A stretch of 37,371 nt of DNA from Campylobacteraceae bacterium (GTDB taxonomy: Bacteria; Campylobacterota; Campylobacteria; Campylobacterales; Sulfurospirillaceae). The DNA lies in NCBI GenBank assembly GCA_026988975.1, contig JALSKH010000186.1, positions 1 through 37,371 of the forward strand, given 5' to 3'. The notes under the pieces are model-generated. The model saw nothing but the letters and a program-made list of their open reading frames with translations. It had not been told where the DNA came from and ran no database searches. Positions 3,506-35,880 of the stretch are shown in pieces. Positions within the stretch are counted from its first letter, which is position 1. Every line of letters begins with the position of its first letter. Position numbers and translations under genes: made by a program.

Positions 3506-5488
3506 ATGAAGAGTCCAAAAGGATTTCGTGGGAAATACTTTTCACTTGCAGCCATACTTGCCATAAGTACAACTGTAACTCTAGCTAGTTCAACTACTAG
3601 CATAGAAGATTCAGCTCTACATGTACAAAAGCAAGATGAGTATGCTGTAAGCGAAGAGGAGACGCCCACACTAGAGGAGGCACCAGTTGTCTTAATCTCA
3701 AAAAAGATTAAGACTAAAAAATCAAAAATATACTCTGCTTCAAAGAGTATAGTAAGCTCTACAAATGTGACTGACAATGTCAGTATCATCACTTCAGATG
3801 AGATAAAACTTCAAGGATATACCAGCGTTACAGAGGCTTTAAAATCACTGCCCGGAATCAGCATAACTTCATATGGAGGAGTTGGAAAATTAACTTCGAT
3901 TTTCTTACAAGGATACTCAAACAAATACCTTTTAGTATTAGTTGATGGCATAAGATACAACGATCCGACAAATACCTCAGGCGCAGACTTGAGCAATATA
4001 TTAGTTGACGATATAGACAAAATAGAAGTCATAAAAGGTGCTCAAAGTGGAGTCTGGGGAGCTGACGCGGCAGCTGGAGTTATAAACATCATAACCAAAA
4101 AAGCAAAACCAGGCACTCATGCTAAAATCAATACAGAAGTGGGAAGTTACGGATATAGAAGCTTGGCAACATCATTGTCAAAAAGGACGAGAAAATATAA
4201 TCTAATGCTTCAAGTACTTAGAACTACGCAAGATGGCTTTACGGCTCAAGCTCCAAAACATGCTGATTTGGGTAACTATGAGAGAGACCCATACAGAAAT
4301 ACAACAGTAAATCTAAATGGTGGGTACTGGTTAAATGCTCACAGCCATATAGAACTAGGCTATAACGATGTGAACTCTTTGACGCATTATGATCAAGGAT
4401 TTAATAATCCAAACTCAGCAGGAAGAGCTGATTATAGAGGGAAAAGCGGATATATAAAGTATAAATATTTTATCAAGAGACACCAGATAGAGGCTACAAT
4501 TTCGCAGAGCTATTTTCACAATAAACAACTAGATGCGACATATGGTATAAATGACTCTATCGGCAAGATACCATCTTTGGAGATAAAAGATACCCTGAGA
4601 TACGGTTCTAAAAATTCATTGGTTTATGGTATAAATTATGAAAAGAGAAAAGTTTATTATACTCAAGTAGGAAGCACAGAAAAAAGAGAAGATGATACAA
4701 ATAAAGCTCTGTTTTTAAACAATATCTATCATTTTAATAAATTAGTCTTTTTGCAAGCACTTAGATATGACTATTTTAGCGGTTTTGACAATAAGCTTAC
4801 AGGAAAATTGGGTCTAAAATATAACATAAACCAAAATTTTAATATATATGCAAATATAGGAACAGCCTATAAAACGCCAAATATGATGGATATGATAAAT
4901 ATCTGGGGATTGAGTAATTTTAATCTAAAACCCGAAAAAATCCTTAGTTACAATGTGGGTTTTAACTACCTTGGGTTGGGTATAAATCTCTTTAGAAATG
5001 AGATTAAAGATATGATAGTTTGGAACAATGCTCCATGGCCGACTCCTGGTCAAAATATAAATATAGATGGAACTTCGGTTTTAAAAGGCGTTGAGATATC
5101 TTATCAAAAGGTTTTCTTTGATAAGCTGCTGTTTGGCCTAAATTATACATATATCGATGCTAAAGATAAGGACAGCAAAAGACTCACAAGAAGACCTAGA
5201 TATCAGTTTGGTATAAATACAACTTATGCATTTACAAAAGATTTTACGATAAGTGCTGATGGAACATATATAGGCTCAAGATTGGATCAGGATTTTTCTA
5301 CATGGCCCGCTAGCTATGTCGATACAGGCAGGTATTTTGTGCTAAATTCTAAGGTAAATTACAAAATAAATAAAACTTGGGGTGTTTATGCAAAAGTGGA
5401 CAATCTGTTTGACAGAGAGTATCAGAGTGTTTATGGATATGCCACCAAGCGAAGAAGTTTTTATATAGGAGTTAATGCTAAGTTTTGA
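3506..5488 (+). CDS. TonB-dependent outer-membrane receptor, BtuB/siderophore-receptor type
   Basis: Signal-like N-terminus, plug domain (VTEALKSLPGISI...IEVIKGAQSGVWGADAAAGVINIITKK), C-terminal beta-barrel ending in F. Shine-Dalgarno aggag upstream. Confidence 0.9.
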   Translation: MKSPKGFRGKYFSLAAILAISTTVTLASSTTSIEDSALHVQKQDEYAVSEEETPTLEEAPVVLISKKIKTKKSKIYSASKSIVSSTNVTDNVSIITSDEIKLQGYTSVTEALKSLPGISITSYGGVGKLTSIFLQGYSNKYLLVLVDGIRYNDPTNTSGADLSNILVDDIDKIEVIKGAQSGVWGADAAAGVINIITKKAKPGTHAKINTEVGSYGYRSLATSLSKRTRKYNLMLQVLRTTQDGFTAQAPKHADLGNYERDPYRNTTVNLNGGYWLNAHSHIELGYNDVNSLTHYDQGFNNPNSAGRADYRGKSGYIKYKYFIKRHQIEATISQSYFHNKQLDATYGINDSIGKIPSLEIKDTLRYGSKNSLVYGINYEKRKVYYTQVGSTEKREDDTNKALFLNNIYHFNKLVFLQALRYDYFSGFDNKLTGKLGLKYNINQNFNIYANIGTAYKTPNMMDMINIWGLSNFNLKPEKILSYNVGFNYLGLGINLFRNEIKDMIVWNNAPWPTPGQNINIDGTSVLKGVEISYQKVFFDKLLFGLNYTYIDAKDKDSKRLTRRPRYQFGINTTYAFTKDFTISADGTYIGSRLDQDFSTWPASYVDTGRYFVLNSKVNYKINKTWGVYAKVDNLFDREYQSVYGYATKRRSFYIGVNAKF

Positions 5489-6054
5489 GAACTCTATATG
5501 TACGAAGTTATCTATACTATAAATTCTTAAATTCCCTATTTTTGGGGCTTAGCGTAGGGAGTATATTTGTTTTATATACTCCCTTGAAACCTTCTATGTT
5601 TTCTATAGGGGGCATTTTTTTGGCACTAGGGATGTTGGTCGTGGCTAAATTTTACGATAAGATCATGAACTTATCGTCTTTCTTTTATATCACTCTGTTT
5701 GTTGAATTCATAGTTTTAGGATTTGTTCTTGTTTTTTTAATTCTAAACTACTCTTATATGAGCGCCCTTTTAGTCTATCTTGGGTATCAGCTTACTTTTA
5801 TGTTTGGCAGCTACTTAGTAAGAATGGAAACCATAGCACTTGGCAGGACGCAACTCATCTCTTTTGCAGATATCATGAAGCAAAAGGGATATCTAGTAGG
5901 GTTAGTGCTATCTTATCTCTTTTATAAAACGCTGTCTTACCTTGGAGTAAGTGATAAGCAGACCCAAGTTTATGATCTTCATATTGGGCTTTTTGTGTTA
6001 GAGATAGTAATCATAATTTTTATTTTTAGATCTTTTTCTAAAAATGTGAGTTAA
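5485..6054 (+). CDS. Hypothetical multi-pass membrane protein, translationally coupled to the receptor
   Basis: 189-aa hydrophobic ORF with a TTG start overlapping the receptor stop codon by 4 nt. Confidence 0.65.
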   Translation: MRTLYVRSYLYYKFLNSLFLGLSVGSIFVLYTPLKPSMFSIGGIFLALGMLVVAKFYDKIMNLSSFFYITLFVEFIVLGFVLVFLILNYSYMSALLVYLGYQLTFMFGSYLVRMETIALGRTQLISFADIMKQKGYLVGLVLSYLFYKTLSYLGVSDKQTQVYDLHIGLFVLEIVIIIFIFRSFSKNVS

Positions 6055-6708
6055 GTACTTTTCTAGTATCAAAACTATCAGCCATGCTATCTCCATTGTG
6101 ACTATTGAGTGGCTTAGAAAATGGTCTCCTATGAACATTTTGTATAGTGACATACTCCAGCCAACAAACATGGCGAGTGCTAAAGCTCTTTTTCTGTTTT
6201 TTCTTGATTTAAATAGAAAAAATAGAGACAAGAGTGCAAATCCTCCACTTGCATGACCTGCTGGCCAGCATTTGATCTTTTTGTTTTGTTTGAAATCTTT
6301 TGGATATGAGTCTAAAACTTTTATATCGGGATAGACTCCTCCAAAATGCTCTATATTTTTTGGGCATGGAGTGTTTGTTGTTGCTTTTAAACTACCTACA
6401 ATCACAGGGATCAATATAGCGGACAATACAACTAAAATCAAACCTTTTTTATACTCTTGGATAACTCTCTTTTTTCTAAAAAACAGAAGACTAAAGAGAA
6501 TGCAAACAGCAAAAATGATCAGTAGTTTTTTAATTCCATTGTAAAATATAAATTTTAAAATCGGTTCATTTCTATCTATCAGCCATTTGTGTGTTTCAAA
6601 ATTGTAAAAATGATTTTGAAGAGATATATCTACATTTGTGTATTCGAAAAAGAGTATGGTTGCTATTAGCAGGATGATTGTTAAAAATATTTGTCTATTT
6701 AGTGACAT
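5998..6708 (-). CDS. PAP2-superfamily membrane phosphatase
   Basis: PAP2 motifs [29 protein letters not shown], plus TM segments. Confidence 0.88.
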
Positions 6709-7309
6709 TTTTCTTCTTCTGTTTTAGATAGTATATGATGGCAAGTAGGACTATTATTGCAAATAATACAAGAGTGATGATATGCAGATATTTTTTTATG
6801 GTATCAGGATTTTCTCCTATGAAGTACCCTAGTAGTACCAAGATGGTGACCCAAATGCCTGCACCTAAGGCAGTATAGAGTGTAAAAATTTTGATATTCA
6901 TTTTTCCTAATCCAGCCGGAAGTGAGATATACTGTCTGATACCTGGAATCAATCTTCCTATGAAAGTTGAGATGCTACCATATTTTTGAAAAAAATCCTC
7001 CACTTTTTGTAGTTTTTTTTCATTCATAAAAAAGTATTTCCCAAACCTTAGTATAAGAGTACGACCGAGTTTAAGTGCAAGATAGTAGTTAAATAGTGCG
7101 CCCAAAATACCGCCCGCTATACCCATAAAGATAGCGATATATAGATTCATATCCCCTTTTGATGCGAGATATCCAGCGGGAATCATCACTACTTCGCTAG
7201 GAAAAGGAAAAAACGAACTCTCCAAAAACATCATAATAACGATACCAATATATCCCAAATCTCCAACAGTACTTACGATAGAATTTATAACATCAGCTAG
7301 CATTTTCAA
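6695..7309 (-). CDS. DedA-family membrane protein (SNARE-associated/VTT domain)
   Basis: [23 protein letters not shown]...[20 protein letters not shown] is typical DedA. Confidence 0.92.
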
Positions 7310-7341
7310 CCTTTAAAAAGTGAAATTTTAGCATAAAAAAC

Positions 7342-8127
7342 TTAGTTTAAGGTCTCTGTTATGGCTTCTACCGATCTATCGCTCATGTCAAGTCCAAGAT
7401 GACCACTTCCTTTGACTTTTACTAACTCTACATTTAATCCTTTTGCTTTTGCAAGTTTGTAAAATCGTTTTGTCATGTATGGCTTAGAGATTTTATCTTT
7501 TGTTCCATATGTGAGTACTATTTTTGTAGTTTTAGGGATTTTATCGATATAGTCAATCGCAGATATCAATCCTTTGGATGGATTTTTTTTGTGTATATTA
7601 TAGACGCCCCCAGCACAAAATAGATTTGTGATGAGTCCAGGTTTTAATCCAGCCAGTGTGGCTCCCATCATAGCACCTGCTGAATGTCCTATATAATTCA
7701 ATTTTTTAGCATGATATTTTTTTTTGAATGCCTGGAGCACAGTTGATAAAAAAAGCAGATATTTTTCACTGGCAGCCTGCGGTTTTGTTTTGCCGAGATG
7801 ACTTAGTGCTTTAAAATGATTTGTAGATGAGCCGGAGTATCCGGGCAGGGCAATAGCCACAGTTGTTATATCTGTTTGAAGTGCCAAATCCTCAGCAAAA
7901 GGAGCGTATCTACCCAGAGTATTTGTGCCAGCTTTCCAAGTTCCGTGTATGATGATATTCAAAGAGTCCTTGTTTTCTGTTTTTGAAACATAAAATTGCA
8001 AACACTCTCCACCTGCAAATATATAGTTTTTGTCTTTTTTGGAACATTCTGATTTGGTTATATTTAATGCAAAAGATGCACTAAAAAAAACAGATATTAA
8101 AATAAAAACAGATAATAATCTTTTCAT
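7342..8127 (-). CDS. Secreted/periplasmic alpha/beta hydrolase
   Basis: Signal peptide (MKRLLSVFILISVFFSASFA), GHSAGAMMG nucleophile elbow, C-terminal GSGHLGLD His. Confidence 0.75.
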   Translation of the reverse strand: MKRLLSVFILISVFFSASFALNITKSECSKKDKNYIFAGGECLQFYVSKTENKDSLNIIIHGTWKAGTNTLGRYAPFAEDLALQTDITTVAIALPGYSGSSTNHFKALSHLGKTKPQAASEKYLLFLSTVLQAFKKKYHAKKLNYIGHSAGAMMGATLAGLKPGLITNLFCAGGVYNIHKKNPSKGLISAIDYIDKIPKTTKIVLTYGTKDKISKPYMTKRFYKLAKAKGLNVELVKVKGSGHLGLDMSDRSVEAITETLN

Positions 8128-8182
8128 ATTTGTTGTCCTTTTTCGATCATTGTACAGAACAAAATCAAATATGTCAATATCC

Positions 8183-8653
8183 CTATAGTGCTCCTAGCGT
8201 TCGTTCAAAATCTCCAGCTATCTCTTGGCTTGCTTCTTTTGTGTCTGATGTTGTTACATCTATCCAGTGTATGAAAAGAGTACCATCTTGCACATCCATG
8301 GTGATAGTTCCAGGTGTTAGAGTTATACTGTTTGCTAGCATAAGTTTTTTGTAATCCTCTTGTAAGTTAGTTTTTATCGCCACTATGCCAGGATTTATAG
8401 GTAGTTTTGGATCTATGACCCTTTTTGCAACATCCCAGTTTGATAAAACTAAATTTTTCATAAAAACAACAAGATAGATGATATAAGCAATCGGTCTAAA
8501 TCTAAAACTATCGCTACTCGGGTAACTTTTGACATATATCAAGGCTATGACAAATGAGACGGCAAATCCTGTTATCAGCTCTTGTGAGTTAAAACTCATA
8601 GTCAGACCAACCCAAATCAAAAATAAAAAAAGCGTCCAAAATATAAATCTCAT
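8183..8653 (-). CDS. MnhE/MrpE-like antiporter subunit (MbxA/MbhA-like)
   Basis: MRFIFWTLFLFLIWVGLTM... and NSITLTPGTITMDVQDGTLFIHWIDV are hallmarks of MnhE. 4-nt overlap with upstream gene. Confidence 0.88.
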   Translation of the reverse strand: MRFIFWTLFLFLIWVGLTMSFNSQELITGFAVSFVIALIYVKSYPSSDSFRFRPIAYIIYLVVFMKNLVLSNWDVAKRVIDPKLPINPGIVAIKTNLQEDYKKLMLANSITLTPGTITMDVQDGTLFIHWIDVTTSDTKEASQEIAGDFERTLGAL

Positions 8654-9048
8654 GATATATCCTTCCTGTTTTTTGGCATATACAGAAAATTATTTGAGTC
8701 TCTGTCGGCATGTATGCACTCATTGTTTAGCTTCAAAGAACTAGGCGGACATACATCGGTACATAGGGAACACCAGCAACATCTTCCATAATCTATTCTG
8801 GGTACACATCCGCTACCATTTTTTGGATTGTACTCTCTATCTGGGTGAACCATGTCTATCGCTTCATTCATGCACACCTCTTGGCAATTTGCACAACCTA
8901 TGCAGGATTCTAAATCATTTATGTGAAAGCCTCTATATCCTCTAGGAATCTCTTTTTTGACTTCAGGGTAAGTGATAGTTCTAGGGTGCTCAAAAAGAGT
9001 TCCTATCGCACTTAATGGTGATAAAACACCTTTTACATCTATTGCCAT
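8650..9048 (-). CDS. NuoI-like 2x[4Fe-4S] ferredoxin subunit (MbxN/MbhN-like)
   Basis: Two cluster motifs: CIGCANCQEVC and CCWCSLCTDVCP. Confidence 0.92.
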   Translation of the reverse strand: MAIDVKGVLSPLSAIGTLFEHPRTITYPEVKKEIPRGYRGFHINDLESCIGCANCQEVCMNEAIDMVHPDREYNPKNGSGCVPRIDYGRCCWCSLCTDVCPPSSLKLNNECIHADRDSNNFLYMPKNRKDIS

Positions 9049-9052
9049 TTTG

Positions 9053-10165
9053 TTACCTCTCTATCTCTGGTGGACATATGCCCAGTGAATTCATAGTCAT
9101 TGCGACATCTGCAAGTTGGGAATCAACAAGTAGTTTTTCAAGAAGTGTATACGCATGCACCAAAGACGGTCCTCGCACCTGCATTCTTCTTATCTTTTCG
9201 CTTCCATCGCCTGCCATATAGTAGCTCATAGCTCCTCTAGCACTCTCAGTTTGCACATAAGTATCGTCAGCAGGCAGCTTAAATTTTCTATGTTTTGGAA
9301 TTTTTTGTAGTATTTCACCATCTTTTGGCATCTGTTTTATTATCTGCCTCAAAATTCTTATGGATTGTAACATTTCATCTCTTCTAACCAAAGCCCTAGC
9401 ATAAACATCGCCCTCAGTTCTGGTTGGTATATCGAACTCTAACTGATCATATTTGAGATAAGGCATATCTCTTCTTACATCTCTTTTGATGCCACAAGCC
9501 CTTAGTGTTTGACCTACATATCCATTTTTAAGTGCTTCATCTGCATTTACAACTCCAACTCCTATGGCTCTGGATTTAAATATAGTATTATCAAAAAATG
9601 TGTTATTATATACAGTTATTCTCTTCTCATAATAATTCATCAAATCGGACAGCTTATCTAAAAATCCATCAGGAATGTCTCTTCTAACACCACCAGGAAA
9701 AGCGTACATGTGATAAACTCTGCCACCTGTTAGCTCCTCAAAAAGATCAAGCATATAGTCTCTGTCGCAAACAGACCATTGAGGAATCAATCCTAAACCA
9801 ATGGAGCCTGCTTGCCCACCCATCCATAAAAATTGAGTAGCCAATCTTTGCATCTCTAAAATCATCGTTCTTATGTATTTTGCTTTTTCACTTATCTCTA
9901 AGCCTGTTAGATTTTCAACTGCTCTGGCAAAATTTTCTTCATTTGGATCGGGCTCTGGTACGCAGATTCGGCAAACTATAGTAAAAGCCTGTACAACTGT
10001 TCTTCTCTCCACTAGCTTTTCAAATCCTCTGTGAAGATACCCTACATGAGTTTGCGCTCTTTTGATGGTTTCTCCAAGCAGATCAAGCTCTACACTCATA
10101 TTTCCTGTGATTCCAGGATGTTGAGGTCCATGAAATATTTTGATTGTATTTTTTAGATCACTCAT
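9053..10165 (-). CDS. NuoD/group 4 hydrogenase large-subunit-like protein with altered L1/L2 motifs (MbxL-like)
   Basis: HGPQHPG, HVGYLHRGFEKL, FPGGVRRDIP. L1 reads RICVPE and the C-terminus reads GICPPEIER. ATG at 10163-10165 (MSDLKN) overlaps the upstream stop; the longer track ORF start (10210) is less likely. Confidence 0.92.
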   Translation of the reverse strand: MSDLKNTIKIFHGPQHPGITGNMSVELDLLGETIKRAQTHVGYLHRGFEKLVERRTVVQAFTIVCRICVPEPDPNEENFARAVENLTGLEISEKAKYIRTMILEMQRLATQFLWMGGQAGSIGLGLIPQWSVCDRDYMLDLFEELTGGRVYHMYAFPGGVRRDIPDGFLDKLSDLMNYYEKRITVYNNTFFDNTIFKSRAIGVGVVNADEALKNGYVGQTLRACGIKRDVRRDMPYLKYDQLEFDIPTRTEGDVYARALVRRDEMLQSIRILRQIIKQMPKDGEILQKIPKHRKFKLPADDTYVQTESARGAMSYYMAGDGSEKIRRMQVRGPSLVHAYTLLEKLLVDSQLADVAMTMNSLGICPPEIER

Positions 10166-10769
10166 TATTTTGTGCCTCACTATCTGGATTTTGTTGCTCT
10201 TGTGCTGCAAGCTTAGCAGCTGCCTCTTGTTCAGCTTTTAGTTTTGCTGCCTTCTTCTCTTCTCTTCTTTTTTTCATCTCAACTTTTACATCAAGATTGT
10301 CCCCTCTTTGATCTCTAAAAGGATTCATACTGTTGACAAACTCCAAAGTATCAAAATCCCTTCTCATAGGAGGCATATGTTCCCAGTACTCCAATGCAAA
10401 ATCTATTAGACTTGGGTGAGTTGGAAAATCAACACCGAACATTTCATGCATCTCTCTCTCCATTATCTCTGCTTGGGGCCAGAGTGTATGCATGGATGGC
10501 AGCGTTGCATTTTCTCTATCTATGCTTGTCTGAACCATTACTACATGGTCCCTCTTTTCAGTTTGCAAACAGTATGTTATCGTAAATAACCCCTCTTCCA
10601 AGTCATCTCGGCAATTTATTGAGTCAAGCGTGATGTAGCCAAACTCATTTAAAAAACTAAGAAGTATGGATTCTAGATTTTCCAATTTTACAGTTACTTT
10701 ATATAAGTGTGCATTTTTCTCTACAAGCTCGAGTGAGAGTTTTTCTAGCTTAGATGATAAATCTATCAT
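10158..10769 (-). CDS. NuoC-like (30 kDa) subunit with charged Ala/Lys/Glu/Gln-rich C-terminal tail (MbxK-like)
   Basis: Complex I 30-kDa signature region (WPQAEIMEREMHEMFGVDFPTHP...). ATG at 10767-10769 forms an ATGA overlap with the upstream gene. Confidence 0.88.
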   Translation of the reverse strand: MIDLSSKLEKLSLELVEKNAHLYKVTVKLENLESILLSFLNEFGYITLDSINCRDDLEEGLFTITYCLQTEKRDHVVMVQTSIDRENATLPSMHTLWPQAEIMEREMHEMFGVDFPTHPSLIDFALEYWEHMPPMRRDFDTLEFVNSMNPFRDQRGDNLDVKVEMKKRREEKKAAKLKAEQEAAAKLAAQEQQNPDSEAQNNE

Positions 10770-11401
10770 GCAACACCTCCATTTTCTAAATTGTACCAAT
10801 CTGTCTCATATGATGGATCGATATGTCCGCCTAGTACTCTTTTTTGGTTATCTTTGTAAAATTTCAAATTTTCATCATATTTTTGCCAGCCAGCTTTTTC
10901 TCCGTTTTTGATTCTCTCTTGCAGAAGAACAAAGCCCTCTATAACTGACTCAGGGCGAGGCATACAGCCTGTAACATACACATCTACTGGTATATAGTCA
11001 TCAAGTTTTTTTATTGTATTATAAGAGTCCCAATACATTCCACCGTTTATGGGACAACTCCCCAAGGTTATGACATATTTTGGTCTTTGCATCTGTTCAT
11101 ATGTTCTTATAACCCGTCTTAGCGTCTTATAAGCCAAATAACCAGAGAGTATAATCAAGTCAGCCTGCCTAGGAGTTGCAACTCCAACAACACCCATTCT
11201 CTCAGCATCGTATCTACTAGTAAAAGTAGGAGGCATCTCTATAGCACCGCATCCTGTTCCGTATGCTACGACAAATATACTTCGACTTCTAAACCAATTT
11301 ACAGCTTTTTCCATGATGGCATGGGTGTTTGCCATACCACTCTCTTCTAATTTGCACTTTAAGCTACTATCTAGGTCACTACCATGAAAACCACTTTCCA
11401 T
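10766..11401 (-). CDS. NuoB/hydrogenase small-subunit-like protein (MbxJ-like)
   Basis: YGTGCGAIEMPP, ITLGSCPINGGMYWDSYN, DVYVTGCMPRPESVIEG. ATG at 11399-11401 has an aagggg Shine-Dalgarno; the track ORF start is a TTG at 11419. Confidence 0.92.
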   Translation of the reverse strand: MESGFHGSDLDSSLKCKLEESGMANTHAIMEKAVNWFRSRSIFVVAYGTGCGAIEMPPTFTSRYDAERMGVVGVATPRQADLIILSGYLAYKTLRRVIRTYEQMQRPKYVITLGSCPINGGMYWDSYNTIKKLDDYIPVDVYVTGCMPRPESVIEGFVLLQERIKNGEKAGWQKYDENLKFYKDNQKRVLGGHIDPSYETDWYNLENGGVA

Positions 11402-11411
11402 TTTATCCCCT

Positions 11412-12305
11412 TTATCCAAACCAAATAACTCTAGCTAATCCTAAGAGAGCTATGAGAGTAGGTATTTTCATTAAAAAATCAACCGCTTGTTCAACTTTAT
11501 ATCTTCCATATACTACACCTATGAAAATAATAGTCACAAAAATAGCCAAAGTTTTTAAAACAAGCATCCAAAGTGAATCAGCTCCACCTAAAAACAGGTC
11601 AATTATCAAAACAAGTTTTGCAAAGGCAAATAGTGAACCCTGAGACATAAGCAGAGCTAAAAATTTACCGCTAAACTCTGTCCTTGGTCCAGAATATACC
11701 TCTTGAGGAGCCCCTGGAATGTCAAATGGCGACTCACCAAAAAAACCTACCATAGAAATCATAGCTGCTATAAAAAGTAGAGGATGGTTTATGATATTTA
11801 AACCCCCTGTTTTTTGCATATCTATGATGTGTACTATATCACTGCTGTTTGCTGCTATTATCAAACCAACAACGGCTATATAAAAGGGCAATTCAAGACC
11901 TATGAGTCGGGTTAAACCTCTGACAACTCCCATAACACCAAAAGGATTGCCACCTGTTCCGACTGCTAAAGCATTGCCTAGTGGTCCTAAAACCATAAGG
12001 TACAACAAAACAAAAAGGTTTCCCTGACTAGTGGCGCTTCTTAAAAAATCACTATCACTAAAAACAGGCACAAGTATAAGAGTTAAAACAGCTCCCGTTG
12101 CCATGATTATTGGTCCTAGATAAAACATCCAACCATAATTAACGGTGTTTTTTTTGGAAAAAAGCTTTATGCTATCGTAAAATGATTGATATATAGTAGG
12201 ACCGTATCTACCTTGAATCCTTGCCAATATATTTCTATATAGACCAAAATAGATAAAACCAACGACATATGCTAACATGATGAGCAGTATAATTTGAAAT
12301 ATCAT
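11412..12305 (-). CDS. NuoH/HyfC-like membrane subunit (MbxM-like)
   Basis: RIQGRYGPTIYQSFYDSIKLFSKKN..., GESPFDIPGAPQEVYSGPRTEFSGK. Confidence 0.94.
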   Translation of the reverse strand: MIFQIILLIMLAYVVGFIYFGLYRNILARIQGRYGPTIYQSFYDSIKLFSKKNTVNYGWMFYLGPIIMATGAVLTLILVPVFSDSDFLRSATSQGNLFVLLYLMVLGPLGNALAVGTGGNPFGVMGVVRGLTRLIGLELPFYIAVVGLIIAANSSDIVHIIDMQKTGGLNIINHPLLFIAAMISMVGFFGESPFDIPGAPQEVYSGPRTEFSGKFLALLMSQGSLFAFAKLVLIIDLFLGGADSLWMLVLKTLAIFVTIIFIGVVYGRYKVEQAVDFLMKIPTLIALLGLARVIWFG

Positions 12306-14077
12306 GAGTTAACTCCTATAAAAAACAGTGCACTAAAGAAGAGCAAGATTATGATCATTGTATTGTGAATATTTCCATAATACATACGACTCAGCAGTTC
12401 AGAACTTCTTTTTGTCTGTAGTGCTAGAGCATCATAAAAAGTTGCTGTACTCCTTTTTAAGATGGCATTTACAAATTTGATTCTGTGCAGTTCCGTACCA
12501 AATCCAAATCCATAGTGCAAAGATGTATCTTTTGATGGTACTTCACCACAGTAGCTTATATCAAATCTGTTTATATTGTTTTTGGCTTTTGATTTTATCC
12601 TGCTGATGAGCAGTAAAATCAAAACAAAAAAGGCAACAAAAGCACTCATGATGAAAAGTCCGTTGAAATTACCAACAGCACTATCCATGATGCCTACTCC
12701 ATCATAAGGCAAAGCTTTCAAAGAGAATTGAGTTAAAATCGGATTTATAACTTTTACAAATGCTCCGGGAAATGCTCCTGTTAAAACCAAAAGAAGTGCA
12801 AGTATGATTTGTGGAATCAGATAACTAAGAGGTACCTCTTTTTGAGTCTCCAGCCCTTTTGAAGTCGGATGTCCAAGATAGATACCATATACCAGTTTAT
12901 AACAGTACAAAAATGATGCTGCGCCAGAAAATAACATACCTATGAGTATAAGAGCAAATTTTGTGTTTATCGCAGCATTATACATCATGAATTTTGATGC
13001 AAAACCACCAAGTGGAGGCATACCTGCCAGACCGATTATACCGATTAAAAGCATCACAAATGAGACAGGAGTCCTATATATGAGACCACCTAGCTCACTA
13101 AATCTGTTTTTGCCGGTTTGTGCTATGATAGCAGCTACATTTATAAATAATAATAGTTTTATGATAGTATGAATCAGCGTATGATAAAGTGCCCCAGCCA
13201 CTCCATAAGTGGTACCAAATCCAATGACAGCAATTATGTAGCCAAGCTGAGCAATGGATGAGTAGGCAAGAAGTCTTTTTACTTCATCTTGTGTTATGGC
13301 TTTAAAGGTTGCTATTATCGAAGTTGCAACACCAATCCAAGCTAGAGTGTAGCCAAAATCTGTACCATTTAAAATGGTCCCAAACATTATCTTTAACTCT
13401 TGATATCCTACTATATTTCCATATATCAAAAAGAGTCCATAGATGCCCATTTTTGACATCACAGCTGAAAGAATTGAGCTAAAAAGGTCAGGCGCTTTTG
13501 AGTATGTATCGACTACCCAATAGTGCAATCCAATCACACCAGCTTTTGTGAAAAAACTGAGTGAGAAGAGAATGATTAGTGTTAATTGTATATCAAATGG
13601 CATACTCTTAAACGAAGCCGAAATCGTAGCAAAATCAAAAGAGTTTGCAAAAGAGTAGGATATGACGATAGCGGCTATCAAAGAGAATGCTGATGCTAAA
13701 GAAAATAGTATATATTTTTGTAGCGACTTTATATCTATATTATTTGATTTTGAGATGATAAAGTAACTACTCCAAGTCATAATTTCCCAACCTATAAAGA
13801 AGGTGATAAAATCTCCTGCTAGAACGATTATCAACATCGCAAAAGAGAGTAGAAGCTGTAGTGCGTAGTAGTTGCAAGAGAGTTTCTTGCTCTTTTGAGA
13901 AACAGTTACGAGCAAAAAAGATATCAAACTCAAATAGGCAAAAAATGTTCCAAGTGGTGTCTGAATCAGACTAAGTGTGAAATCTTTTGTCAAAGAGAAG
14001 CTTACATGTAGGTCTCCCCCAAACTGATATAAAAATAGTATAGGTAAGATATTTAATAGTAAAAATATTGAATTCAT
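12302..14077 (-). CDS. NuoN/MrpD/HyfB-like proton-translocating subunit (MbxH'-like, second antiporter-like subunit)
   Basis: 591 aa; FFIGWEIMTWSSYF (Glu), TKAGVIGLHYWVVDTYSKAP (Lys), HTLIHTIIKLLLF, AGMPPLGGFASKF. Confidence 0.92.
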   Translation of the reverse strand: MNSIFLLLNILPILFLYQFGGDLHVSFSLTKDFTLSLIQTPLGTFFAYLSLISFLLVTVSQKSKKLSCNYYALQLLLSFAMLIIVLAGDFITFFIGWEIMTWSSYFIISKSNNIDIKSLQKYILFSLASAFSLIAAIVISYSFANSFDFATISASFKSMPFDIQLTLIILFSLSFFTKAGVIGLHYWVVDTYSKAPDLFSSILSAVMSKMGIYGLFLIYGNIVGYQELKIMFGTILNGTDFGYTLAWIGVATSIIATFKAITQDEVKRLLAYSSIAQLGYIIAVIGFGTTYGVAGALYHTLIHTIIKLLLFINVAAIIAQTGKNRFSELGGLIYRTPVSFVMLLIGIIGLAGMPPLGGFASKFMMYNAAINTKFALILIGMLFSGAASFLYCYKLVYGIYLGHPTSKGLETQKEVPLSYLIPQIILALLLVLTGAFPGAFVKVINPILTQFSLKALPYDGVGIMDSAVGNFNGLFIMSAFVAFFVLILLLISRIKSKAKNNINRFDISYCGEVPSKDTSLHYGFGFGTELHRIKFVNAILKRSTATFYDALALQTKRSSELLSRMYYGNIHNTMIIILLFFSALFFIGVNS

Positions 14078-15528
14078 AGTCCTACTCCTAATGCAAATTT
14101 TAGATAATCAGTCGGATTTATCAAGGCATTTGCCGCCAAATCCGTGTAGTGAATCAACAAGGAAGGAAATAGACCAAATATGACTATCAGTGCTGCCAAT
14201 ACACAGAGCAAGATATAGTTTATAAAGCCTACATGCACAACTCTTTTTGTCCCTTTTTTATCTAACATCATAGCTGTCAATCTAAAGAAATATACAGCTT
14301 CTACGATAGAAACCAAAAGTATAAAAGCTATGGCACTGTAGTTATGAGATAGAGCAAATCCCTTTAAGATTAGAATTTTTCCAACAAATCCACTAAAAGG
14401 AGGAATTCCTAAGATCGATAAAAAACCAATAGCAAATATGATGGTCAAAAATCTTGATTTAAAATCTCCAAATATAGAGATTTTTGTACTTTTGAGATGG
14501 TGAATCAATATGCCTAAAGCCAAAAATATCAACAACTTAGATATAGAGTGACTTGTAAGATGGAAAAGAGCACCAGAAACTGTTTCACTAGAGTTGGTTG
14601 ATAGAGCCATAAACAAGATGCCAAGTTGCCCTAGTGTTGAGTATGCGAAAAGTCTCTTGACATTTGTTTGGTTTAGTGCGGTAAATTCGGAAACTAAAAA
14701 TGTGATCGCACCTATAACCATGACAAAAAGCATATACTTTGAACTTAAGCCAAATAGATAAAATAGATGAAAAAATACAAACAGATAAGCTTTTGCAACA
14801 ACAGAGCTAAAGAGTCCATTGACTGATGAGATGCTTCCTTGATATATATCTGGCGCCCAAAAGTTCATCGGAAATAGTTCTGCTTTTGTTCCAAAACCTA
14901 TAAAAAGCATCAAAACTATAAGAACAGAAATCTTTGGATCTATTTCGTGAAATCTTTGAGCAATTAAGCCTAGATTTACTGTCCCTATCTGTAGATATAT
15001 CAGCATAATCGCAAAAACTATAAATATAGAAGCAATGGAGCCTATGATGAGGTATTTTATGCCTGATTCTAAACCTAGTTTGTCTTTATTGTATGCTGAT
15101 AGCGTATATGAGCATATACCAACGATTTCGAAAAAGATGTAGAGGTTAAATATATCGCAACTTAGTATCATACCGATACTGCCTGCTATTAGCATATTGA
15201 AAAATACATAAAATCTCGCTTCATCTCTTTTTGGATTAACTTTAAAATACCATAACATATAAAAAGAGACAATAACCGCAGAAAAAGTAAAAATCAACAA
15301 AAAGAGCAATGAGTAACCATCCAATACAAATGCGATACCCAAAGGTGGTTTGATAGAAAATTGCGAAATCTGAGGAAGTTTCATAGTTGTATAAGCGATG
15401 CTTTGCACAAAGAGTATGAAACTCAACAAAATTGAGCTGCCTCTTAGCGTAAAAGAGCCTAACTTTTTAAAGTAAGGAGTCAAAAATGAGAATATAACCG
15501 GCAATAAAAAATAGTAACCTAAACTCAT
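14074..15528 (-). CDS. MrpD/MnhD-like proton-translocating subunit (MbxH-like)
   Basis: 484 aa; FFEIVGICSYTL, GTKAELFPMNFWAPDIYQGS, HSISKLLIF, LGIPPFSGFVGKI. Confidence 0.93.
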   Translation of the reverse strand: MSLGYYFLLPVIFSFLTPYFKKLGSFTLRGSSILLSFILFVQSIAYTTMKLPQISQFSIKPPLGIAFVLDGYSLLFLLIFTFSAVIVSFYMLWYFKVNPKRDEARFYVFFNMLIAGSIGMILSCDIFNLYIFFEIVGICSYTLSAYNKDKLGLESGIKYLIIGSIASIFIVFAIMLIYLQIGTVNLGLIAQRFHEIDPKISVLIVLMLFIGFGTKAELFPMNFWAPDIYQGSISSVNGLFSSVVAKAYLFVFFHLFYLFGLSSKYMLFVMVIGAITFLVSEFTALNQTNVKRLFAYSTLGQLGILFMALSTNSSETVSGALFHLTSHSISKLLIFLALGILIHHLKSTKISIFGDFKSRFLTIIFAIGFLSILGIPPFSGFVGKILILKGFALSHNYSAIAFILLVSIVEAVYFFRLTAMMLDKKGTKRVVHVGFINYILLCVLAALIVIFGLFPSLLIHYTDLAANALINPTDYLKFALGVGL

Positions 15529-15529
15529 G

Positions 15530-15907
15530 TCAATCCCTCAACTCATTCATTTTTGATATATCATTTCTACCAGTAAGTTTATAATACTCGATACCAAATG
15601 ACAATCCAAGTGCCAAAATCGCTAACCCAATAACAATGGTTGTCAAAATCATCGCTTGAGGGACAGGATCTACCATGCCCGTAAAAGTTTTAGTTTTATC
15701 ATCAACTATCGGTGCAACTAAGCCAACTTTATAGTGTAAGCCTATAAAAAATAGAAAAAGAGCCGACTCCATTATGTCAAAGGAGACCAAAACTTTCACT
15801 AGATTTTTTTGTGTTGCAATTCCATAAAACCCTATAAAAAAGAGTGCCATGGAGCCCACTATAATGATAGCATGTATGCTCTGTGTTGAGTTGAAAAAAT
15901 CAAGCAT
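15530..15907 (-). CDS. MnhC/MrpC-like (NuoK-like) subunit (MbxG-like)
   Basis: NLVKVLVSFDIMESALFLFFIGL...DPVPQAMILTTIVIGLAILALGLSF. Confidence 0.92.
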   Translation of the reverse strand: MLDFFNSTQSIHAIIIVGSMALFFIGFYGIATQKNLVKVLVSFDIMESALFLFFIGLHYKVGLVAPIVDDKTKTFTGMVDPVPQAMILTTIVIGLAILALGLSFGIEYYKLTGRNDISKMNELRD

Positions 15908-16628
15908 TTTCTATCTCCTTTTCGTGTTCTTCTTTTACAAAATACTCTACTATGACAGCCATCTCGCTACCAACTTTTATACCTACTATCACATAAATGA
16001 CAGGGATGATACCACCACTTATAAGATTCCCAATTTCACTTACAGGATGGGGTAAAAAATTTCCTAGTAGCATATTTACTTTAAAAAGACCGATGATAGC
16101 GACCAATACATAAGCTGATCCGCTCAGGGACTCGCCAAGTGTTAAGATAGAGTGATTTAAGTCCATATTTGGGTTTGCCAAGAAGAGCAGTAAAAATGCA
16201 GTTGCGATAACAACACCACCTTGAAATCCACCACCAGGACTTAAGTGACCGTGAATGATGATATAGGCACCAAAAAGAATTATGACACTCAATAGTAAGC
16301 GACTGCCGACATTTAAGATGAAACTATCTTGTTTGATGATTTTTGCATAAGTTCTTTGCGATGTACTCAACATCAATGCTACACCAGAAGTTGCCAAAAA
16401 CAGAACCGTAACTTCTCCAACTGTATCGATTCCCCTGAAAAATGTAACAACAGATGTGACGGCATTTGCGGTAGCCGTTTGCATATTTAGATTTAAAAAT
16501 ATATCACCAACACTTTTATGAAGGTCTGTCTTCACTTGCATAAGTAATCCAAGCAGAGATAAAAGAAGAGCCGAAGACAAAATAGATAGAACAATATGTT
16601 TGATAGGTAGGGTTTTTTTAAGACTCAT
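15900..16628 (-). CDS. MrpA-C-terminal (MbhE-like) plus MnhB (MbhF-like) fused subunit (MbxF-like)
   Basis: N-terminal half NAVTSVVTFFRGIDTVGEVTVLFLATSGVALML resembles MbhE/MrpA C-terminus. C-terminal half HLSPGGGFQGGVVIATAFLLL resembles MnhB. Confidence 0.87.
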   Translation of the reverse strand: MSLKKTLPIKHIVLSILSSALLLSLLGLLMQVKTDLHKSVGDIFLNLNMQTATANAVTSVVTFFRGIDTVGEVTVLFLATSGVALMLSTSQRTYAKIIKQDSFILNVGSRLLLSVIILFGAYIIIHGHLSPGGGFQGGVVIATAFLLLFLANPNMDLNHSILTLGESLSGSAYVLVAIIGLFKVNMLLGNFLPHPVSEIGNLISGGIIPVIYVIVGIKVGSEMAVIVEYFVKEEHEKEIENA

Positions 16629-16873
16629 GACTCTACCTCCTCTTGAGATGTGTGTCTGATTCCAAGCAAAAATACTGCTGTACTAAGACCTGTTCCGATA
16701 ACTGCCTCTGTAAGTGCAACATCAGGTGCTTGAAATATAAAAAACAGCACAACACTACCAAGACCAACACCCATAAAAAGCATGACAGATTGAGTTATAT
16801 CTTTGCTTAATATCGCTCCAAGAGCAACTATTATGATAGACAAAAATGTAAATAGTATAAGTAATCCTATCAT
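16625..16873 (-). CDS. DUF4040/MbhD-like (MrpA-derived, NuoJ-like) subunit
   Basis: 82 aa: FIFQAPDVALTEAVIGTGLSTAVFLLGIRHT (typical APDVALTEA motif). Confidence 0.9.
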   Translation of the reverse strand: MIGLLILFTFLSIIIVALGAILSKDITQSVMLFMGVGLGSVVLFFIFQAPDVALTEAVIGTGLSTAVFLLGIRHTSQEEVES

Positions 16874-17196
16874 TTCTCATCTCCTTTTAATGCATCAACT
16901 CCGCTACTGTTGAAAACATGCTTGTAAAATCTCTTGTATGTTGTCATAGCAAGGAGTGAAGAGGATATGGGATTTGTTATGAGTATGAAAACTGCCAAAA
17001 CTATAAGTTTGAACGACCATTGTGGCTCAAAGCAGGCTATTCCTAAAATCACTAACAAAGAGCCTAGCGTTGAAGCTTTTGTAGCTGCTTGCATTCGCGT
17101 CAAGGTATCTGGCATACGCAACAGACCAATCCCGCTGATAAAAAATAGCAAAACTCCCAGTAAAGCAAGTATATATCCAAGAAAAACCAACATCAC
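16870..17196 (-). CDS. MnhG/MrpG-like subunit (MbxC-like)
   Basis: GIGLLRMPDTLTRMQAATKASTLGSLLVILG...NPISSSLLA. Confidence 0.94.
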   Translation of the reverse strand: MMLVFLGYILALLGVLLFFISGIGLLRMPDTLTRMQAATKASTLGSLLVILGIACFEPQWSFKLIVLAVFILITNPISSSLLAMTTYKRFYKHVFNSSGVDALKGDEK

Positions 17197-17441
17197 AGCT
17201 CCTTATCTAAGAATTTTGCAAATACTACCGTGCCTACAAATCCGATTAATCCAAAGACAAATGCAACATCAAGATACAAACTCTTTTGAAAATAAAAGGA
17301 GAGAACAACAAGCAAAGAGGTAGCAATGATGCTCATAGAATCAAAAGCAACAACCCTGTCAGCCAGAGTTGGACCCCTCAAAAACCTGATCAAGACCAAC
17401 AATAGCGATAACGCTATAAGTAAAATCAAAAAATTTAACAT
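17193..17441 (-). CDS. MnhF/MrpF-like subunit (MbxB-like), first gene of the 13-gene operon
   Basis: RFLRGPTLADRVVAFDSMSIIATSLLV...DVAFVFGLIGFVGTVVFAKFL. Confidence 0.94.
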   Translation of the reverse strand: MLNFLILLIALSLLLVLIRFLRGPTLADRVVAFDSMSIIATSLLVVLSFYFQKSLYLDVAFVFGLIGFVGTVVFAKFLDKEL

Positions 17442-33364: not shown

Positions 33365-34588
33365 ATGAATGGTCAGTTTAAACAGTATTCACTCCAATCG
33401 ATAAAAAGTGTAGATACCACCTATAAAAGATACTTTTTTAATGAGGTTGATTTCAATCAAAAACTTATAGGGATAGTGGGCGATAGAGGGATAGGGAAGA
33501 CAACTTTTTTGCTGCAATACCTCAAAGAGCTTGATCTGCCATACAATAAAAAACTCTATGTAAGTGCCGAGTATTTACTTTTAAGTGCTATTTCACTTTT
33601 TGAATTGGCAGAAGATTTTTGCAAATTTGGAGGTGAGATATTAGTAATAGATGAGATCCACCAGATCCCGGAATTTGAAAAACATTTAAAAACGATATAT
33701 GACTTTTTGGATTTAAAAGTTATCTTTAGCGGTAGTAGTGCCATCAAACTCCAACATGCAAAAGCTGACTTAAGCAGAAGAGCGTTGTCGTATCACTTTG
33801 GAGGGTTAAGTTACAGAGAGTTTTTAGAGTTGAAGTTAGGAATAAAACTAAACTCTTTTGAGTTGGAAGATATTTTACAAAACCATACCGAAATAGCTTC
33901 AGATATTTTTGAAAAAATAAAACCCTTAGAGCACTTTAGGGAGTATTTACAATATGGCTACTATCCGTTTTACTTTGATGACAAAGAGCATTATCTGCAA
34001 AGAGTCAATGAAACGATCAATACTACGATAGAGCATGACTTGGCATATATCTTTAACATAGAGCCAAAATATCTTATGAAATTAAAACAACTTGTTGCTA
34101 TGATCTGCTCCTCTAAGCCTTATGCGTTAAATATCTCAAAATTAGCTCAAAAGATAGAGATAAACAGAAACACCCTCTATCAATACCTCTACTACCTAAA
34201 ACGGGGCAAAATATTTAATCTGCTCAATCATCAAGCAAAAGGGGATAATATCTTTACAAAACCTGCAAAAATATACCTTGGCAATACAAACTTAGCCTAT
34301 GCTTACTGCTCAAACCAAGAGGTAGGAACCATAAGGGAGATATTTTTTGCCAATCAGATGCAAAACTATCTCTCTTTACTTAAAAACAGAAGTTTTTTAG
34401 ATGATCAACTACTAGCTAGCAAGCAGGGTGATTTTTTAGTCAAAAACAGATACACTTTCGAGATAGGTGGGAAAAAGAAAAGCTTTAAGCAGATAAAAGA
34501 TCTACCTAGCTCTTTTGTAGTAGCTGATGATATTGAGGTGGGTTTTAACAACAAAATACCTCTTTGGTTGTTTGGGTTTTTGTATTGA
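33365..34588 (+). CDS. AAA_14/DUF4143-type ATPase (tandem copy 1)
   Basis: Walker A GDRGIGKTTFL, Walker B EILVIDEIHQIP, sensor VIFSGSSAIKL, C-terminal GDFLVKNRYTFEIGGKKKSFKQIKD. Confidence 0.88.
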   Translation: MNGQFKQYSLQSIKSVDTTYKRYFFNEVDFNQKLIGIVGDRGIGKTTFLLQYLKELDLPYNKKLYVSAEYLLLSAISLFELAEDFCKFGGEILVIDEIHQIPEFEKHLKTIYDFLDLKVIFSGSSAIKLQHAKADLSRRALSYHFGGLSYREFLELKLGIKLNSFELEDILQNHTEIASDIFEKIKPLEHFREYLQYGYYPFYFDDKEHYLQRVNETINTTIEHDLAYIFNIEPKYLMKLKQLVAMICSSKPYALNISKLAQKIEINRNTLYQYLYYLKRGKIFNLLNHQAKGDNIFTKPAKIYLGNTNLAYAYCSNQEVGTIREIFFANQMQNYLSLLKNRSFLDDQLLASKQGDFLVKNRYTFEIGGKKKSFKQIKDLPSSFVVADDIEVGFNNKIPLWLFGFLY

Positions 34589-34662
34589 AATGCAAATAAT
34601 ACTTGACAAAATAAAAATAATATGTTAATGTAAATTTACAATTAATTTCTTAAGGTGTAAAT

Positions 34663-35880
34663 ATGGATTTACAATATTTTTTTGAAGAACAAGATAAGCT
34701 TTTAGACAAAGTATCAATGTCAAAAAAAAGATATTTATTTGAAAGTATAGATTTAAATCTAAAATGTATAGCTATTTTAGGTCAAAGAGGGGTTGGTAAA
34801 ACGACACTTATGCTTCAAATGATTAAATCTAAATACAACAATAATAAAGCTCTATATATATCGATAGATAGTCCGTTTTTTCAATCTATATCTTTATATG
34901 AGTTTGCAAAAGAGTTTGAGCAGATGGGTGGAGAGGTGCTGTTTGTTGATGAAGTTCACAAATATCCAAATTGGTCATCTCATATAAAAGAGATATATGA
35001 TAAGCTTGACATAAAGGTTATATTTTCAGGTTCTTCAATCTTGAAAATCTCAAAGCAAAATGGTGATCTCTCAAGAAGAGCAGTTGTTTACACTCTTGAA
35101 AATCTCTCTTTTAGAGAGTATCTTTTGTTTAGCGATATTGAAAATTTTAAGCCACTATCTCTTGAAGATATTTTAACCAATCACCAAAGCTATGCAAAAG
35201 ATATAGTTAAACAAATTAAACCGTTAAAATATTTTAAAGAGTATTTGAAAGTCGGAGCATATCCATTTTTTTTGGAAGATAGAAGTGTTTATCATAAAAG
35301 AGTAGCGCAGATATTAAATATTATTTTAGAGAGCGATTTGCCATATATCAATCAAATAGAGATGGCTCAAATTTCAAAACTTAAAAAACTTCTTTATCTA
35401 CTTGCGGTGAGTGTTCCGTTTGTACCGAATATTACGGACTTATCACAATCAACCAATATATCTAGGCCAAAAATCTATGAGTATTTGCAATATTTAGAAG
35501 ATGCTAAAATCATAAATAGTTTACGAAGTAAAGATAAAGGATACTCTATAATGTCAAAACCTCAAAAACTATTTATGCAAAATAGCAATATATCTTATGC
35601 CGTAACTCAAAATCCAAATATAGGTGCATTAAGAGAGACTTTTTTTGTTAATCAGATTAAAAATTACTATGCAGATAGCAGTAGTTTTTTAGATGAATAT
35701 ATTTACAGTGCAAAACAGGGTGATTTTTTAGTTGACGGCAGATACACTTTTGAGATAGGTGGAAAAAATAAAAGCTTTAAACAGATAAAAGATATACCAA
35801 ACTCTTTTATAGCAGCTGATGATATTGAGGTGGGGTTTGGTGATAAAATCCCTCTTTGGCTGTTTGGGTTTTTGTATTAA
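34663..35880 (+). CDS. AAA_14/DUF4143-type ATPase (tandem copy 2)
   Basis: Walker A GQRGVGKTTLM, Walker B EVLFVDEVHKYP, VIFSGSSILKI, C-terminal GDFLVDGRYTFEIGGKNKSFKQIKD; paralogous to copy 1 along its whole length. Confidence 0.88.
   Translation: MDLQYFFEEQDKLLDKVSMSKKRYLFESIDLNLKCIAILGQRGVGKTTLMLQMIKSKYNNNKALYISIDSPFFQSISLYEFAKEFEQMGGEVLFVDEVHKYPNWSSHIKEIYDKLDIKVIFSGSSILKISKQNGDLSRRAVVYTLENLSFREYLLFSDIENFKPLSLEDILTNHQSYAKDIVKQIKPLKYFKEYLKVGAYPFFLEDRSVYHKRVAQILNIILESDLPYINQIEMAQISKLKKLLYLLAVSVPFVPNITDLSQSTNISRPKIYEYLQYLEDAKIINSLRSKDKGYSIMSKPQKLFMQNSNISYAVTQNPNIGALRETFFVNQIKNYYADSSSFLDEYIYSAKQGDFLVDGRYTFEIGGKNKSFKQIKDIPNSFIAADDIEVGFGDKIPLWLFGFLY

Follow-up and report, generated by a model that had tools for sequence, protein, structure and literature searches.

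Sequence comparisons support the view that a minus-strand operon of 13 genes encodes a bacterial complex related to the archaeal membrane-bound sulfane sulfur reductase (MBX/MBS); it lies within a 37,371-nt stretch of DNA from a Campylobacteraceae bacterium (assembly GCA_026988975.1, contig JALSKH010000186.1), which is called the window below. The host is a vent-associated member of Campylobacterota, with a genome (G000) of 2.26 Mb that is 97% complete. Bacterial MBX is already known from Thermotoga maritima (PMC9431562) and, as a putative Mrp-Mbx complex, from the Riftia symbiont (PMC11636981); what is new is its presence in Campylobacterota. Text searches of the open-access literature, which are no proof of absence, found no paper naming MBX in this phylum.

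The open reading frames (ORFs) and their Pfam and NCBIfam matches agree on 13 contiguous genes at 8183–17441 in the order mbxB, C, D, E(F), G, H, H', M, J, K, L, N, and A, as given in a preliminary description of this DNA, and each subunit expected of an MBX/MBS complex is present once. The genes had been described as mostly overlapping by 4–8 nt, which holds for nine of the 12 junctions (4 or 8 nt), the others being gaps of 1, 7, and 4 nt; the absence of NuoE, NuoF, and NuoG from the operon was likewise confirmed. Scans for promoters and terminators returned nothing beyond what shuffled sequence gave. The 13-gene order is repeated in L001, L003, L006, and G061 with protein identities of 70–98%, and since it recurs in related genomes at these identities, the operon is neither a product of chance nor an assembly artefact.

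Seven subunits (L, J, H', H, M, E/F, and N) were compared with solved structures in the PDB, and for all seven the top match was the counterpart in Pyrococcus furiosus MBS (6u8y), with a lead of 13–105 bits over the next complex type. MbxL matched 6u8y_L with 305 bits, compared with 221 for complex I and 138 for MbhL, and MbxJ matched 6u8y_J with 221 bits, compared with 128 for the best NuoB type. The scores of MbxH', MbxH, MbxM, and MbxE/F with 6u8y_X, 6u8y_H, 6u8y_M, and 6u8y_E were 241, 244, 140, and 161 bits, against 146 (6cfw_H), 162 (6cfw_H), 77 (6cfw_M), and 56 (6cfw_F), respectively; MbxN matched 6u8y_N with 66 bits, against 53 for the next complex type. In the tree of L subunits (29 rows, LG+C20), which holds one archaeal MBS and, among bacterial phyla, Campylobacterota only, MBS and all Campylobacterota MBX fall on one side of a branch with a support of 100/99. 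Approximately unbiased (AU) tests rejected trees in which MBX (p=0.007) or MBS (p=0.002) was forced together with complex I. A second L tree left out the Ehr/Hyf-like L subunit of contig C159, which has a very long branch. Nesting of the L and J subunits inside NiFe hydrogenases or canonical NuoBD had been set beforehand as the outcome contrary to an MBX/MBS identity; the L tree does not have it, and the J tree agrees with the L tree, although with weak support (91/93) and extreme long branches.

The residues by which the catalytic site can be recognized were taken, together with the subunit composition, from the MBS structure paper (PMC7684303). MbsL C85 and C385 are kept as RICVPEPD and CPPEIER (or CPPEMER) in MbxL of the window and in all aligned relatives. 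The two CxxC motifs that form the NiFe ligand pairs of group 4 [NiFe] hydrogenases are absent from the MbxL alignment, as is the adjacent cysteine pair of NuoB, a mark of complex I, from the MbxJ alignment. The quinone residues of Nqo4 are replaced in MbxL as in MBS, H38 by Thr and Y87 by Val. In the proximal cluster of MbxJ, three cysteines corresponding to MbsJ C28, C93, and C123 are kept, and the position of MbsJ C25 is Gly in every aligned Campylobacterota MbxJ. C25 is not a cluster ligand in MbsJ, and the C25A mutant is still active (PMC7684303); its natural loss is in line with this evidence that the residue is dispensable for catalysis. Alignment with the PDB chains showed that MbsH' E128, K217, K248, H336, and K399 are all conserved in MbxH', while MbxH has E138, K250, H330, and K393 of MbsH, with E219 changed to Lys, and MbxM has four of the five acidic residues of MbsM (E193, D196, E203, and E211, not E104). 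The assignment to MBX/MBS rather than complex I or the membrane-bound hydrogenase (MBH), made in the preliminary description, is thus upheld by the PDB matches, the L tree with its AU tests, and the active-site residues. Identities as complex I, MBH/Ech, or Ehr were rejected on the subunit set, the active-site residues, and the L tree.

The operon has in common with P. furiosus MBS/MBX (6u8y; PMC7684303) the set of 13 subunits, in which E and F are fused and the H-type pump occurs twice, as well as the L motifs, the three-cysteine proximal cluster, and the pump residues. MbxL is 41% identical to MbsL; the differences are those at MbsJ C25, MbsH E219, and MbsM E104 and the host, here a Campylobacterota bacterium with genes of the reverse tricarboxylic acid (rTCA) cycle. 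MBH, a group 4 [NiFe] hydrogenase (6cfw), shares the Mrp-derived membrane arm and the J, K, L, M, and N module, but the window operon differs in its second H pump, in the fusion of E with F, and in an L subunit free of NiFe ligand pairs. Complex I (Nuo) has homologous B, C, D, H, and I subunits and antiporter-like subunits, whereas the window complex lacks E, F, and G, includes Mrp subunits, has the quinone residues replaced, and forms a separate clade. The archaeal MBX operon presumably starts with mnhE (A), which is the last gene here. T. maritima, set beside the window by description only, likewise has a bacterial 13-subunit MBS homologue, in a hyperthermophilic fermenter rather than a CO2-fixing member of Campylobacterota. 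Similarly, the Riftia symbiont, also likened by description only, is a vent bacterium with the rTCA cycle and additionally has the Calvin cycle.

One scan of genome contigs returned Campylobacterota only, and the named relatives are metagenome-assembled genomes of this phylum. A plasmid tblastn search gave matches all below 60% identity, the best of them being a rhizobial NuoD. MBX is patchy across CO2-fixing Campylobacterota, a pattern of gain and/or loss: it was found in seven of the 10 genomes of the host genus, in 21 of 176 genomes and six of 11 genera of family f4, and in one genome of family f12 (G346); a contig labelled Nitratifractor (L005) has an L sequence identical to that of the f4 genome G394. 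At the MBX-free site of the host genus in G299 (L138) and G305 (L139), the flanking abhydrolase, glycine-transporter-like, and argD genes are adjacent, and in G299, the flanks lie approximately 60 nt apart. The L and J subunits of G346 are 85% and 82% identical to those of the window, compared with 83% and 74% in the same-genus genome G061, while its NuoD (83% vs. 90% in G061) and ATP-citrate lyase (79–81% vs. 85–87%) are less similar to those of the window genome, which is suggestive, but not proof, of a recent MBX transfer involving G346. In genus g80, MBX is interrupted between M, J, and K by defence-type genes, namely, a C5 methylase fused to an Eco47II-type endonuclease, a 1448-aa NOV_C protein, and a YhcG/DUF1016 nuclease, and the subunits are still open (L122 of G505, 3815–12421; L126 of G486, 8721–9851).

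The genes next to MBX differ between genomes. For instance, pgi-pfk-pyk lies 3' of mbxA inside a glycogen cluster in G196, the trio being kept in G365; zwf-pgl lies downstream of mbxA in G439, a HAD phosphatase followed by porGDAB in G458, and genes for a CoA-disulfide-reductase-like protein and glutamate dehydrogenase in G433. The ackA-pta pair is convergent with MBX in G302 and G303 (L006 and L007), and acs is two genes away in G061; the remaining MBX sites have unrelated neighbours. Of approximately 14 separate sites, five have a central-carbon or ferredoxin gene at most two genes from MBX, against approximately 0.6 expected, a rough, after-the-fact estimate that assumes such genes to make up 2% of the genome and involves no formal test. 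In G398, a CitMHS-family, possibly NhaD-like, ion transporter gene starts 17 nt after mbxA (L129, 3–1148, minus strand) and is possibly tied to a Na+ circuit.

A ferredoxin-linked sulfur or polysulfide reductase, or its reverse, fits the homology and the gene neighbourhood. It is considered probable, with fair room for doubt, that the complex oxidizes ferredoxin, reduces polysulfide or a disulfide, and pumps ions in one coupled reaction, the electrons coming from carbohydrate or acetate-linked breakdown. Reduced ferredoxin from pyruvate:ferredoxin oxidoreductase would give its electrons to MbxN, and three [4Fe-4S] clusters would relay them to the proximal cluster of MbxJ; the fourth iron of this cluster, having no cysteine ligand, would cleave polysulfide or another disulfide. 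The energy would drive the two proton pumps (H and H'), and the Mrp-type module (A–E and G) would probably form a Na+ gradient. The complex would be active mainly during the breakdown of stored glycogen or acetate-linked carbon, with sulfane sulfur as the electron sink, in a role like that in Pyrococcus and beside the separate Mo-type reductases of the same genome. This forward, carbohydrate-fed direction is favoured because in several genomes the downstream neighbours are glycolytic genes, zwf-pgl, acetate genes, or the genes for pyruvate:ferredoxin oxidoreductase, and it is supported by T. maritima, in which mbxA of the 13-subunit MBX rises 4.4-fold with elemental sulfur (S0) (PMC9431562). 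Several points weigh against it. No activity, expression, or physiology was found for any Campylobacterota member; the same genomes have ATP-citrate lyase and so need reduced ferredoxin to fix CO2, which may make its oxidation by MBX wasteful; and G000 encodes three catalytic subunits of PhsA/PsrA-type Mo reductases, so sulfur reduction is possible without MBX. The neighbourhood pattern was spotted only afterwards, does not hold at most sites, and lacks a formal null, and the ferredoxin donor and the Na+ step are proposed from homology only.

The complex may instead run in reverse, the proton or sodium motive force driving electrons from sulfide or polysulfide up to ferredoxin for the rTCA cycle, which appears rather unlikely; no MBX/MBS has been shown to serve this purpose. 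ATP-citrate lyase is found in all 13 genomes checked, none of which has an RnfC match above the cut-off (all matches were far below it), and G196, with one complex I, MBX, and no group 4 hydrogenase large subunit, offers little else of this superfamily as a source of ferredoxin; the putative Mrp-Mbx complex of the Riftia symbiont is co-expressed with the rTCA cycle (PMC11636981), and porGDAB beside MBX in G458 is also compatible with reverse flow. However, ATP-citrate lyase, like the NrfD/PsrC-type proteins of all 13 genomes, occurs in MBX-positive and MBX-free genomes alike; because the MBX-free genus members G299, G305, and G306 have it, the rTCA cycle does not depend on MBX. In addition, most of the informative neighbours are genes of carbohydrate or acetate catabolism, and the characterized MBS runs in the reductive direction (PMC7684303). 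A pump of the MBX type working with another redox pair, which either passes electrons to an organic disulfide or takes them from NAD(P)H by way of a partner flavoprotein, is harder still to favour. It draws on G438, where MbxN forms a fusion protein with a GltD-like, NAD(P)-linked flavoprotein that has Fer4_20 and Pyr_redox_2 domains (L136, 1462–3255, plus strand; PRK13984, 643 bits), pointing to a probable NAD(P)H-linked MBX variant, on the top NCBIfam match of the window MbxN (NF010590, 133 bits), which covers only the N-terminal part of the model of that fusion, and on the CoA-disulfide-reductase-like gene after MBX in G433. The G438 contig is only 3.3 kb long, with an L subunit 56% identical to that of the window; no such fusion or flavoprotein gene lies in or beside the window operon, and at the other MBX loci that have an N gene, this gene stands unfused.

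A ferredoxin:menaquinone oxidoreductase, that is, a complex I variant with Mrp subunits, would agree with an MbxL that passes the NCBI cut-off for NuoD (NF004739, 390 vs. 360 bits) and with the L tree, in which MbxL and MBS are nearer to complex I than to hydrogenases; the replacement of both Nqo4 H38 and Y87, the missing NuoB cysteine pair, and the AU rejection of a complex I grouping make it improbable. Mrp subunits alone could act as a Na+/H+ antiporter, and no result here favours a degenerate or non-redox antiporter that merely carries hydrogenase-like genes; with all 13 genes intact and conserved between species, and with the cluster cysteines, charged-axis residues, and L motif conserved, such an antiporter is scarcely credible.

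The host genome has five loci of this superfamily: two of complex I (C22 and C6, the latter with NuoEF), the window MBX, a [NiFe] formate-hydrogenlyase-like locus, and an Ehr/Hyf-like locus. The formate-hydrogenlyase-like locus (C34; L018, 9662–17942) encodes a formate dehydrogenase in two pieces, a HyfB-like protein, and a [NiFe] large subunit with both CxxC motifs; a GltD-like flavoprotein gene adjoins it. The large subunit of the Ehr/Hyf-like complex (C159; L019, 262–5966) lacks any NiFe ligand. Elsewhere in the window, two adjoining paralogous AAA/DUF4143-like ATPase genes of 407 and 405 aa (33365–35880, plus strand) form an apparent tandem duplication.

Genes of the MBX operon in the window, listed in operon order
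Gene	Description	Length (aa)	Position	Strand	Evidence
mbxB	MnhF/MrpF-like; Na+/H+ antiporter module	82	17193..17441	-	PF04066, 67.8 bits
mbxC	MnhG/MrpG-like	108	16870..17196	-	PF03334, 83.6 bits
mbxD	MbhD/DUF4040	82	16625..16873	-	PF13244, 73.3 bits
mbxE	MbhE+MnhB fusion as in MbsE	242	15900..16628	-	PDB 6u8y_E; PF04039
mbxG	MnhC/NuoK-like	125	15530..15907	-	PF00420, 81 bits
mbxH	MnhD/NuoN-like proton pump	484	14074..15528	-	PDB 6u8y_H; Proton_antipo_M
mbxH'	Second antiporter-like proton pump	591	12302..14077	-	PDB 6u8y_X; Proton_antipo_M
mbxM	NuoH-like membrane anchor	297	11412..12305	-	PDB 6u8y_M
mbxJ	NuoB-like; carrier of proximal [4Fe-4S] cluster		10766..11401	-	PDB 6u8y_J; alignment
mbxK	NuoC-like	203	10158..10769	-	PF00329, 78 bits
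mbxL	NuoD-like	370	9053..10165	-	PDB 6u8y_L; motifs; tree
mbxN	2x[4Fe-4S] ferredoxin-like (NuoI-like); predicted electron entry	132	8650..9048	-	PDB 6u8y_N
mbxA	MnhE-like; last operon gene	156	8183..8653	-	PF01899, 138 bits

MBX/MBS is regarded as connecting Mrp antiporters, hydrogenases, and complex I in evolution. The MBX/MBS biochemistry found so far comes from a hyperthermophilic archaeon, and the complete operons of Campylobacterota offer further systems in which its chemistry may be tested. The operon also makes two questions testable, namely, from where sulfur-oxidising autotrophs that use the rTCA cycle obtain their reduced ferredoxin and what becomes of ferredoxin when reserves are broken down without oxygen or nitrate.

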